This document shows, one piece after another, positions 6,678 to 10,690 of a stretch of 21,747 nucleotides of DNA. The stretch's first letter is position 1, and every line of letters starts with the position of its first letter. The DNA lies in the IMG/VR virus record IMGVR_UViG_3300020473_000141, positions 1-21,747 of that record; one strand, 5' to 3'. The position numbers and the translations under genes were made by a program. The notes under the pieces are model-generated. The model saw only the letters and a program-made list of their open reading frames with translations. It made no database searches and had not been told where the DNA came from. This DNA is from a virus.

Positions 6678-6684
6678 TAGTTAT

Positions 6685-6701
6685 GGATGCCTTCGGGATC
6701 C
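6685..6701 (+). ncRNA. 5' leader hairpin with UUCG tetraloop
   Basis: GGAT-G-CC-TTCG-GG-ATCC folds into a six-base-pair stem (GGAT/ATCC and CC/GG) with one bulged G at 6689, capped by a C(UUCG)G tetraloop. It is placed at or within a few bases of the predicted transcript 5' end. It is more likely an mRNA-stabilising leader structure than a terminator, because no U-tract follows and the strong AAGGAG site for hsp20 lies at 6725-6730. Whether it belongs to a known phage RNA family could not be judged by eye. Confidence 0.6.
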
Positions 6702-6739
6702 GCACAACACAAACTCGCTTATAAAAGGAGCTAAGAATC

Positions 6740-7192
6740 ATGGGTAACAAAGACCTATCCCATTTCGTATGGGATCATTACACACCATTTTCTATTGGTT
6801 TTGATGAAACATTTCAGAGACTTGAGTCTATCGCAACAGCAGGAAGTAACTATCCACCTTACAACGTCATTAATGGACCTGATGGTAGAACCAGTTTGGA
6901 AATCGCTCTTGCTGGATTTTCAGGAGATGATATCGAAGTCTCAACAGAAAGGAATGTTCTAAACGTTTCAGCATATCCAAAGAAAGAGAAAGAACAGAAT
7001 TATAAACATAGAGGTATAGCATCTAGATCATTCCAAAGGCAATGGCAGATGGGAGCAGACGTAGAAGTTAAGGAAGTAACATTCCAAGACGGTTTGCTTA
7101 CTGTTGTACTAGAGAAGTATATACCTGAAGCACAGAAGAAAAAGCTTTGGTTCGGAAAAGAACTTAAGAAGCTTGACTCTTCTGTTTCTTAA
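6740..7192 (+). CDS. hsp20: Small heat-shock protein, Hsp20 family
   Basis: 150 residues. The alpha-crystallin domain covers about 40-130: YNVINGPDGRTSLEIALAGF, the ERNVLNV strand, a GIASRSFQRQW segment, and VTFQDGLLTVVLEK with its GLL core. sHsps are ATP-independent holdases; in T4-like cyanophages a single hsp20 gene is nearly universal. They may protect virion or photosynthetic proteins during infection, which is inference. The tail (KKKLWFGKEL) lacks the usual IxI/V motif. It has the strongest ribosome binding site and the only clear promoter in the window, so it heads its own transcript and may also serve the downstream polymerase genes. Confidence 0.93.
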   Translation: MGNKDLSHFVWDHYTPFSIGFDETFQRLESIATAGSNYPPYNVINGPDGRTSLEIALAGFSGDDIEVSTERNVLNVSAYPKKEKEQNYKHRGIASRSFQRQWQMGADVEVKEVTFQDGLLTVVLEKYIPEAQKKKLWFGKELKKLDSSVS

Positions 7193-7221
7193 TGCTATAG
7201 TGTACACAGCGTGAATAAGAT

Positions 7222-7596
7222 ATGGCCTGTCAAGTAATAACCCTTAGAACTGGGGAACGTGTTATAACGGAACTCAAGGAAATATATGATGGAGAAGGGG
7301 ATGATAAGAAGGGTGTATGTCTTCTTATGGAAGATCCATACGTCCTACACTTAGATACTCAAGAACCACAGTATCTCACTGAACAACTAGGTGCAGAATA
7401 TAAGGTACGCTTTAGCAAGTGGAATCCTTATTCATCTGACTGGCAATTTAAGATGCCTTATGATGCAGTTATGACTATTAGCAATCCTGAACCAGGATTA
7501 CAAACGTCATACGAACAAAAGATCAAAGAAAAACGTGAAGTTGAATTAGAAAGTTCATTAAAACTAACAAAGGAGATACATGACGGAACAAATTGA
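7222..7596 (+). CDS. Sm-like phage protein, paralogue 1
   Basis: 124 residues. The first ~90 look like a beta-barrel Sm-like unit: VITLRTGERVITELKEI, then CLLMEDPYVLHL, then VRFSKWNPYSS, and a last strand AVMTISNPEPG, followed by a charged helical tail. The same blocks recur in the next gene (VVTLDTSERVLTIFGEI, LLYPYALSL, IRYERWCPYSP), so the two are paralogues. Sm-like proteins of cyanophage origin have been reported. By analogy with Hfq/Lsm they may bind RNA, but no function is shown. It follows hsp20 after 29 nt without an obvious terminator and overlaps paralogue 2 by 17 nt. Confidence 0.75.
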   Translation: MACQVITLRTGERVITELKEIYDGEGDDKKGVCLLMEDPYVLHLDTQEPQYLTEQLGAEYKVRFSKWNPYSSDWQFKMPYDAVMTISNPEPGLQTSYEQKIKEKREVELESSLKLTKEIHDGTN

Positions 7597-8008
7597 ACTA
7601 AGGACTAATCATAATGTACGAGTAGTCACTCTCGACACCTCTGAGAGGGTTCTAACTATCTTTGGTGAAATACGCACTGAGGATGAAGAACAAAGGGTTA
7701 TTGGTTACAGGCTTCTCTATCCTTATGCCTTATCGTTAGGTGAGGTTAATGATGATGGAACAATTCCTATTCGTTATGAGAGGTGGTGTCCATATAGTCC
7801 TGTGGAAGAACACAAAATCGGTGGAGAACATATCATTAGTGTTGTCCTACCCGATAATGGTATACTAGATAATTATGTAAATAGACTGAAACAAGTAGGT
7901 CTAACAGAAGAACAAATCTTTTTTGAGGTAAATAATGGAGGAGAATCAAGTCCTGAAGATGATGCTACTGAAGAACCAGTGGATACTGGCGAAGGTGGAG
8001 GAGATTGA
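7580..8008 (+). CDS. Sm-like phage protein, paralogue 2, acidic tail
   Basis: 142 residues. It shares with paralogue 1 the T-ER(V)-T first strands, a central LLYPYALSL, and the WCPYS block at about 69-73. The C-terminal ~35 residues diverge into a low-complexity acidic/glycine tail (NNGGESSPEDDATEEPVDTG and on). The ATG has GGAG upstream (AAAGGAGATACATG). The acidic tail overlaps the third member in another frame for 74 nt. A C-terminal acidic tail on an RNA-binding-type barrel is reminiscent of Hfq, but this is only an analogy. Confidence 0.75.
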   Translation: MTEQIELRTNHNVRVVTLDTSERVLTIFGEIRTEDEEQRVIGYRLLYPYALSLGEVNDDGTIPIRYERWCPYSPVEEHKIGGEHIISVVLPDNGILDNYVNRLKQVGLTEEQIFFEVNNGGESSPEDDATEEPVDTGEGGGD

Positions 8009-8207
8009 AGGAGCACAATTTGGTGATCCTGATTGCATTCTAGTAGAACCAATGTTATGGGATGGTGGACAGTTAAAAGACTGGCTACCATTTGCGGATG
8101 AAAAGGAGACAATTGTCCGTTCTTCTGATATAATAACATTTGTAGAACCTGGTAAGGAGACCCTTTCCAAGTACTACAGTTACACACCAGAAGTGTTGAG
8201 TGAATGA
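7935..8207 (+). CDS. Sm-like phage protein, paralogue 3 (divergent)
   Basis: 90 residues. MLLKNQWILAKVEEIE begins the barrel, then DPDCILVEPMLW, LKDWLPFAD, and IVRSSDIITFVEPGKETLSKYY. These line up with the strand order of the two upstream paralogues, though with low identity. ATG 7935 has a good site (GAGG at 7925-7928, 6 nt spacer). The in-frame ATG at 7962 would start at the conserved domain. The first 74 nt overlap the acidic tail of paralogue 2, so that tail is under double coding. The stop overlaps the polymerase start (ATGA). Confidence 0.7.
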   Translation: MEENQVLKMMLLKNQWILAKVEEIEGAQFGDPDCILVEPMLWDGGQLKDWLPFADEKETIVRSSDIITFVEPGKETLSKYYSYTPEVLSE

Positions 8208-10690
8208 AGTTCTACACAAGCGTTGAACAAGCTGGCAATCGTTTGCTAGTGCGTGGTTATGATAATGGTAACAGATATAGCGTGAGGGTTCCTTTCAACC
8301 CCACGCTATATTTGCCTTCTAAGAATTATTCTGAGTGGAGGACATTAGATAATAAACCAGTAGAACCACATCAGTTTGGTTCTATAACTGAAGCAAGAGA
8401 ATTTGTAAAACAGTATAAGGAAGTTCCTAATTTTGAGATACATGGAAACACAAGGTTCCTGTATCAGTATATGGCAACGGAACATCCAGAGGAGCATATT
8501 AAGTTTGATACCTCAAAGATTCGTGTCTTTACAATTGACATTGAGACAGCAGCAGAGAATGGATTTCCTGATATAGAATCAGCAGACCAAGAGATATTAG
8601 CGATCAGTATTAAGGATTCCTTTACTGGTCGCATTACTGTCTGGGGTGCTAGACCTTTTGACAATAAAGATTCTGAAGTTGATTACATGCACTTCAGATC
8701 AGAAGAAGGAATGCTTAATGCCTTTCTAGGTTATTGGCAGGACAATTATCCTGACGTAGTTACAGGATGGAATGTACAGTTATTCGATATGCCGTACATT
8801 GCTAATCGTGTAGAAAGAATATTGGGAGAGAAGGCAGTTAAACTTCTTTCTCCATGGAGATTAGTATCTAAGAGAGAGATCTTTATTAAAGGTCGTAAGC
8901 AATGGGCGGTAGATACACTTGGTATATCTACATTAGATTATCTTGATTTGTATAGGAAGTTTACTTATCAGAATCAAGAGAGTTATAGACTTGATCACAT
9001 TTGTATGGTTGAACTTGGAGCGAGAAAGTTAGATCACTCTGAGTTTGATACATTCAAAGAGTTCTATGAGAATGACTGGCAGAAATTTATTGAGTACAAC
9101 ATCCATGACGTTAGGTTGGTGGATAAACTTGATGATAAGATGAAGTTACTTGACCTAGCATTTACTATGGCATATGATGCTAAGGTTAATTATGAAGATG
9201 TGTTTAGTCAGGTTCGTATGTGGGATAACTACATATACCACGAACTAACTAAACGTAAGATAGCAATTCCTCCTAAGAAGGAAGCAACGAAAGACTCACA
9301 GTATGCAGGAGCTTATGTCAAGGAACCGAAACCAGGACGCTATGATTGGGTTGTTAATTTTGATCTCAATAGCCTCTATCCTCATCTTATTATGCAATAC
9401 AATATCTCACCAGAGACCCTCTGGGAGACTAGACACAGTAGTGCCAATGTTGAAGGGATCTTAAAGAAAGAGGTAGAGATTGATGGGACTTATGCAGTTT
9501 GTGCGAATGGAGCTCAATATCGGAAGGATGTACGAGGATTCCTTCCTGAACTTATGGATAAGATGTATGAAGAGAGGGTCATCTTTAAGAAGAAGATGCT
9601 TAAAGCAAAGCAGGATTACGAAAAGAAACCTTCTAATGAACTCATTAAAGAGATCGCTAGATGTAACAACATCCAAATGGCAAAGAAGATATCTCTTAAT
9701 AGTGCTTATGGTGCTATCGGTAATGAGCACTTCAGGTATTATAGGTTAGCAAATGCTGAGGCTATTACGTTATCAGGTCAAGTCTCAATTAGATGGATTG
9801 AGAACAAGATGAATGGTTATCTAAATAGATTGCTATCTACAGATAAGGTAGATTATGTCATTGCATCTGACACTGACTCAATATATCTTAATCTCGGACC
9901 TGTTGTTGATAAATTTTTTGGTAATAAGTCTAGTGATAAGATTCGGATCGTGGAGCTACTTGACAAGATCTGCAAAGATAAGTTGGAACCGTTCATTGAT
10001 GCCTCGTATCAGGAGCTTGCAACGTATGTATCGGCGTATGATCAAAAAATGATCATGAAGCGAGAGAACATTGCTGATCGTGGAATATGGACTGCCAAGA
10101 AGAGATACATATTAAATGTATGGGACTCAGAAGGAGTCAGGTATAAAGAACCCAAGATGAAAATTATGGGGTTGGAAACAGCGAGGTCATCAACACCTCA
10201 ATACTTTAGGGATAAATTATATGCAGCTTTCAAGATCATTATCGGCAAAACAAATGATGAACTTATCTCTTTTATCAATGATGTCAGAACAGAAACCAGA
10301 GAACGACCTTATGAGGAAGTCGCATTCCCACGAGGCGTTAACAACCTTGAAAAGTATCGCCACAGAACTAACATCTATACAGAAAGGACACCGATCCATG
10401 TAAGAGGTGCTTTACTATACAACCATTATGTTAAAAAACATAAGATAGAAAATAAACATCCCCTGATACAGGAGGGTGAGAAGATTAAGTTTATGTACCT
10501 TAAGACACCTAATCCAATACATGAAGATGTAATTAGTTTCTTTGGGGATCTCCCTGAAGAGTTTGGTCTTGAGAAGTATGTTGACTATAAAACACAATTT
10601 GAGAAGAGTTTCTTGAATCCATTAATAAATGTGCTAGACTGTGTAGGTTGGACGCACGAGAAAAAAATCACACTAGGGAGTTTCTTTTAA
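8204..10690 (+). CDS. 43: DNA polymerase gp43 (family B)
   Basis: 828 residues versus 898 in T4. The 3'-5' exonuclease has Exo I DIE at 112-114, Exo II WN..LFD at 189-195, and Exo III YNIHD at 298-302. The polymerase has motif A DLNSLYP at 387-393, motif B KKISLNSAYG at 494-503, and motif C DTDS at 556-559. The C-terminus LGSFF fits the short clamp-binding peptide that docks on gp45. All catalytic aspartates are present, so proofreading and synthesis should both work. The start overlaps the Sm-like paralogue by 4 nt and the stop overlaps the next ATG by 1 nt. Confidence 0.97.
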   Translation: MKFYTSVEQAGNRLLVRGYDNGNRYSVRVPFNPTLYLPSKNYSEWRTLDNKPVEPHQFGSITEAREFVKQYKEVPNFEIHGNTRFLYQYMATEHPEEHIKFDTSKIRVFTIDIETAAENGFPDIESADQEILAISIKDSFTGRITVWGARPFDNKDSEVDYMHFRSEEGMLNAFLGYWQDNYPDVVTGWNVQLFDMPYIANRVERILGEKAVKLLSPWRLVSKREIFIKGRKQWAVDTLGISTLDYLDLYRKFTYQNQESYRLDHICMVELGARKLDHSEFDTFKEFYENDWQKFIEYNIHDVRLVDKLDDKMKLLDLAFTMAYDAKVNYEDVFSQVRMWDNYIYHELTKRKIAIPPKKEATKDSQYAGAYVKEPKPGRYDWVVNFDLNSLYPHLIMQYNISPETLWETRHSSANVEGILKKEVEIDGTYAVCANGAQYRKDVRGFLPELMDKMYEERVIFKKKMLKAKQDYEKKPSNELIKEIARCNNIQMAKKISLNSAYGAIGNEHFRYYRLANAEAITLSGQVSIRWIENKMNGYLNRLLSTDKVDYVIASDTDSIYLNLGPVVDKFFGNKSSDKIRIVELLDKICKDKLEPFIDASYQELATYVSAYDQKMIMKRENIADRGIWTAKKRYILNVWDSEGVRYKEPKMKIMGLETARSSTPQYFRDKLYAAFKIIIGKTNDELISFINDVRTETRERPYEEVAFPRGVNNLEKYRHRTNIYTERTPIHVRGALLYNHYVKKHKIENKHPLIQEGEKIKFMYLKTPNPIHEDVISFFGDLPEEFGLEKYVDYKTQFEKSFLNPLINVLDCVGWTHEKKITLGSFF

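Follow-up and report, generated by a model that had tools for sequence, protein, structure and literature searches.

Gene layout between hsp20 and gp43

The window, that is, the whole stretch of DNA analyzed here, is a 21,747-base IMG/VR virus record and represents a genome fragment of a T4-like cyanophage. Its genes run in the order gp62, regA, hsp20, A, B, C and gp43, and the same order around A-B-C was seen in S-RSM4 and other cyanomyoviruses. The location of these genes directly in front of that for the polymerase is conserved. The features of this region are as follows.

6740-7192, upstream of A: hsp20 (phrog_432, E=3e-47)
7173..7201, + strand: promoter-like site, TTGACT-17-TATAGT, its -10 box preceded by TG, ending 20 nt before A
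7222..7596, + strand: gene A (P0001), 124 aa, predicted Sm-fold paralogue 1 (phrog_431, 2.5e-35)
7580..8008, + strand: gene B (P0002), 142 aa, predicted Sm-fold paralogue 2 (phrog_431, 7e-31), with a disordered acidic/glycine tail
7935..8008, + strand: B/C overlap by ORF coordinates, 74 nt shared by the coding sequences of B's acidic tail and C's N-terminus
7935..8207, + strand: gene C (P0003), 90 aa, predicted Sm-fold paralogue 3 (phrog_483, 1.2e-19; DUF6561)
8204..10690, + strand: gp43 DNA polymerase, overlapping C by 4 nt, with orthologous order in S-RSM4, Sf-CH1b and S-PM2

The regA gene (PF01818, E=7.5e-46) lies upstream of hsp20 and A-B-C. A and B overlap by 17 nt, and B and C are each preceded by a recognizable ribosome-binding site (AAGGAG and GAGG, respectively). 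An earlier note on this DNA had read three tandem Sm-like paralogues between hsp20 and the polymerase, and the reading held: the three ORFs are in place, they are homologous, and a Sm-like fold is predicted for B and C, with A joined to them by sequence. The acidic/glycine tail that it gave to B is indeed present at the end of the protein, with the qualification that the tail is predicted to be disordered (pLDDT ~43-67) and that the last 24 residues of B, which make up most of it, are encoded by DNA common to the N-terminus of C in another frame. Its statement that T4 has no equivalent at this place was also confirmed, as T4 carries 62-regA-43 with nothing between, and none of the four family profiles had a match in T4.

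A, B and C are paralogues

A and B were connected by BLASTP at E=2e-9 in a single comparison, and both carry the WxPYS block that had been noticed in them (WNPYS in A, WCPYS in B). The third paralogue is divergent, as had been proposed, with a looser WLPFA in place of this block, and its link to A was undetectable by BLASTP (E=0.76). This lack of significance would favor the view that C resembles A and B by chance and that paralogy is limited to A and B, but profile comparisons connect all three, class by class (A-B 2e-21, A-C 1e-13, B-C 3e-6) and with larger alignments (E=2e-11). In addition, the solved structure 3by7 was found by both sequence profiles of the family, and the predicted folds of B and C have it as the same top solved match. 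A chance resemblance of C is thus scarcely credible, and we regard a C unrelated to A and B as ruled out by the profiles and the predicted fold. Iterated searches seeded by A, B or C each converged on a 96-member set. Failure of the three to align by profile methods had been named in the earlier note as grounds for giving up its claim; they do align, and on these sequence comparisons A, B and C are paralogues beyond chance.

In a phylogenetic tree, the type A genes from relatives of the window, those of type B and those of type C each formed a supported clade of their own, with window B grouped with five orthologues (support 99/97) and the C clade supported at 96/88; several branches of the tree are long, and its deep branching order is unsure. 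The separation of the clades indicates that the duplications predate the compared phages and are not recent tandem copies. All three genes are under purifying selection, with dN/dS of about 0.1-0.3 against near relatives.

Predicted fold and family identity

The family is already known as Pfam DUF6561, as phrog_431, 471, 483 and 527, and through 3by7 (JCVI_PEP_1096686650277, from a marine metagenome). Against the DUF6561 cut-off of 27, C scored 77.5 bits, while A (26.9) and B (12.8) both fell below it; C thus belongs to the DUF6561/3by7 family by score, and A and B belong via their profile linkage to C. Gene A matched the designed cage TIP60 at 2e-4 and gene C matched 3by7 at 4e-5, and two sequence profiles of the family reached 3by7 independently (E=2e-8 and 7e-8). 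The title of the 3by7 entry reads "structurally similar to Sm/LSm-like RNA-binding proteins", and one phage record labels a family member "Sm-like domain-containing protein". A search of NCBIfam gave no family for these proteins, and DUF6561 is named in no paper of the part of the literature that was searched.

AlphaFold2 models of B and C, built from the window and IMG/VR sequences, had mean pLDDT values of 87.9 and 87.2, and each consists of a small barrel followed by a helix. With 3by7, the B model gave Z 13.4 and rmsd 2.1 over 86 aligned residues, and the C model Z 12.3 and rmsd 1.4 over 75. The next matches of both were the TIP60 cages, which are built on 3by7, and then nearly all were Sm/LSm chains at Z 5-6. 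With Z values so well above those of the following matches, B and C are predicted to have the fold of 3by7, and A was placed by sequence. The absence of a Sm-like barrel had been another stated ground for rejection, and the models contain one. The Sm-like reading of A, B and C is therefore right, with the fold being a model prediction for B and C.

The likeness to 3by7 and TIP60 extends over fold and sequence profile, whereas identity to 3by7 is 15-24%, the closest type to 3by7 is type D (phrog_527, E=8e-11) rather than A, B or C, and B has an additional acidic tail. Archaeal and eukaryotic Sm/LSm proteins share the barrel with the B and C models (Z ~5-6); the phage proteins differ from them in being acidic, in the near absence of the Sm2 signature (1/417) and in the position of the helix, which in the models comes after the barrel with none before it. 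Bacterial Hfq probably has the superfold and the ring principle in common with A, B and C, but these are acidic and lack its K-H-A/S motif (0/417).

A larger paralogue set in cyanophages, with the triple as one of its forms

Strong matches to A-type (phrog_431), C-type (phrog_483) and type E (phrog_471) proteins were found in all 17 whole cyanomyovirus genomes, a count that leans upward as 14 of the 17 were picked via matches to A or C; P-SSM2, P-SSM4 and Syn9 were picked independently of such matches. Type D gave a strong match in 4/17 of these genomes, and an extra A/B-type copy stands beside A in 5/17. Where inspected, e.g., in S-PM2, type E occupies the interval from uvsW to gene 55, which is also the place of the only family copy in the pelagiphage HTVC008M. 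Type D sits in the gene 44-62 interval of ACG-2014f and of many IMG/VR contigs. A scan of bacterial genomes for type D hit one contig, from a gammaproteobacterial MAG, and gave no cellular source at that sensitivity; the collection scans were run with single-protein queries, the families being too divergent for alignments.

Across 220 hsp20-gp43 loci, the interval contained A-C in 118, A-B-C in 48, A-A-C in 33, B-C in 20 and C alone in 1, so that an A- or B-type gene adjoins one C-type in 219/220. These counts are descriptive, as some contigs contributed more than one locus and every locus was retrieved through A/B/C genes or D. The triple, whose conservation across cyanophages the earlier note had named as a check, recurs, but A-C is the commonest form and the triple is not a universal state. 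It is also unlikely to be the full complement of this phage, of which the window is only a fragment, since type E occurs in every cyanomyovirus genome tested. By sequence matching, the A-B-C triple is one form of a larger paralogue set. In the part of the literature searched, the separate clusters were not described as one paralogue set at several positions.

A, C and E have direct orthologues in T4-like GC 176, GC 177 and GC 139, respectively, in matching genomic positions in S-PM2 and other phages; compared with these, the window has the extra paralogue B, which is also present in S-RSM4, Sf-CH1b and S-WAM2.

Several members or neighbors of the set deserve mention in their own right. S-PM2 p116 (L342 3507-3905; phrog_471, T4-like GC 139), annotated as "methylamine utilization", is a member of the Sm-fold family, and the annotation looks wrong. 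S-RSM4 carries a further Sm-fold copy on the minus strand (153627-153962; L344 2128-2463), which is remote from the replication genes and neighbors those for 2OG-Fe(II) oxygenase and short tail fibre. The gp43 of ACG-2014f (L016 3279-6267) is annotated as two genes separated by two small ORFs, which gives it the look of a split or interrupted gene. In S-SSM7, the hsp20-A interval contains a manA RNA (L008 2708-2908; Rfam RF01745, 123.6 bits) and, after it, a tRNA, in a region partly annotated as a small hypothetical gene.

A putative promoter and transcription unit

The number of promoter-like sites in the region is at chance level, and the position of the site before A is recurrent: among 148 unique sequences taken from ahead of the first Sm gene, 46% had a 10/12 site, compared with 2.3% in shuffles, and these upstream sites cluster 20-29 nt before its start codon. 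No promoter-like site was found before B or C. The site before A suggests that the Sm genes are grouped with gp43 and not with regA. A-B-C-gp43 may accordingly form one transcription unit apart from regA and hsp20, with gp43 as its likely last gene. The hsp20-A intergenic region of several other phages (e.g., L012 2584-2684) holds a terminator-like hairpin with a T run, which precedes the promoter and overlaps its -35 box.

The hsp20 leader as a candidate RNA thermometer

Upstream of hsp20, the leader at 6682-6738 of the window contains two conserved hairpins. In hairpin I, the four pairs adjoining an unpaired G are formed in 97-98 of the 98 unique sequences, counted with the loop as anchor, and three of the four covary above every shuffle. 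In hairpin II, an invariant UCGCU pairs with the Shine-Dalgarno sequence (AGGA) in almost every one of 50 unique arm pairs, and a flanking pair switches between C-G and G-C. ROSE-like thermometers are defined by U(U/C)GCU paired to the Shine-Dalgarno sequence within the 3' hairpin, upstream of a small heat shock gene (PMC3669281), and the leader has this pairing; the signature together with the two-hairpin layout resembles short ROSE-like RNA thermometers (PMC3669281; PMC9450479). ROSE_2 and ROSE_3 were the two highest-scoring Rfam families on the leader, both below their gathering scores (20.0 bits vs 43 and 19.8 vs 65, respectively), and ROSE_3 appeared, again sub-threshold, in 1/8 other phage loci. 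The hairpin-plus-UCGCU pattern is present at 225/260 hsp20 loci. A model of the leader matched 16/17 cyanomyovirus genomes, once in nearly all of them and at the hsp20 start in 13 annotated ones, while a match in T4 gene 43 (E=0.006) was weak and was treated as chance. The folding model showed no sharp melt between 20 and 42 °C. No paper joining cyanophages with a ROSE-like element was found in the literature searched. From pairing and covariation, we rank the hsp20 leader as a strong candidate ROSE-like RNA thermometer.

Ring state, RNA contact and possible function

The chain counts of 5 in 3by7, all of one sequence, and 60 in TIP60 agree with a pentamer. 3by7 is reported by Das and co-workers (2009, Proteins 75:296) to be a homopentamer, probably from a cyanophage and possibly able to bind nucleic acid. 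A review (PMC10374429) describes the LSm portion of TIP60 as pentameric. The calculated pI values of A, B and C are 4.78, 4.29 and 4.29, the medians of types A, B, C and D lie at 4.3-4.7, and a pI above 7 occurs in about 1 of the 417 unique A/B/C sequences; this acidity argues mildly against RNA binding by A, B and C. In the same 417 sequences, a loose pattern of the Sm2 RNA-contact signature (R-G-x-N type) was found only once, and the Hfq Sm2 motif (Y/F-K-H-A/S) not at all.

In our view, the best explanation, to which we give a probability of about 0.6, is that A, B and C are old Sm/LSm-fold paralogues whose pentamer-type rings, mostly of one kind, serve the replication and late-expression machinery. 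Each protein would make a ring like that of 3by7, largely with its own kind, with some mixing possible, and the three would be translated from overlapping frames of one mRNA running from the promoter before A into gp43. Their role would then be that of adaptors, or of proteins associated with nucleic acid, within this machinery of the phage. This function is read from gene position only: family genes stand next to gp43, in the interval from uvsW to the late sigma gene 55 and, in some phages, between the clamp-loader genes 44 and 62.

The earlier note had proposed instead that the three form one mixed Sm-like ring that binds RNA and, with RegA, controls the translation of replication genes. The co-encoding of three paralogues in overlapping frames, the pairing of an A- or B-type gene with one C-type at nearly every locus and the position of regA two genes upstream are consistent with such a ring, and eukaryotic Sm rings are mixed. 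However, the number and kind of members vary between phages, which leaves no fixed composition, and the solved relative 3by7 is reported to be a homo-oligomer. The proteins are acidic and without the Sm2 or Hfq motif, and the promoter separates the Sm unit from regA. We therefore consider this mixed ring unlikely.

The same acidity (pI 4.3-4.8 in A, B and C, with similar medians across the four types) would suit protein-binding adaptors or inhibitors, i.e., acidic rings or barrels docking onto the polymerase, the clamp loader, the late sigma factor or a host factor, and the family genes adjoin those of gp43, gp44/62 and gp55. Sm-fold proteins usually contact RNA, though, and gene position is weak evidence for physical contact, so purely protein-binding rings seem to us a doubtful reading, on a par with the mixed ring. 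Rings built mostly of one kind and serving replication and late expression remain our preferred explanation.

Significance for cyanophage biology

Cyanomyoviruses are abundant ocean viruses in which many core genes are unexplained; 16 hypothetical genes were counted in the cyanophage core (PMC3037559). The fold and the family described here were already known, and the triple of the window adds members to them. With T4-like GC 139, 176 and 177 tied to one Sm-fold family, three orphan entries become one testable question, that of what the rings bind and whether they mix. Speculatively, and in our view improbably, T4-like cyanophages could possess a core Sm-ring system of several paralogues (A, C and E in all, B or D in some), with distinct or mixed pentamers serving the replisome and late transcription; if true, such a system, absent from T4, would parallel in phages the eukaryotic Sm rings built of paralogues. 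If the Sm rings bind RNA or the replisome, they would add a level of regulation missing from the model phage T4.
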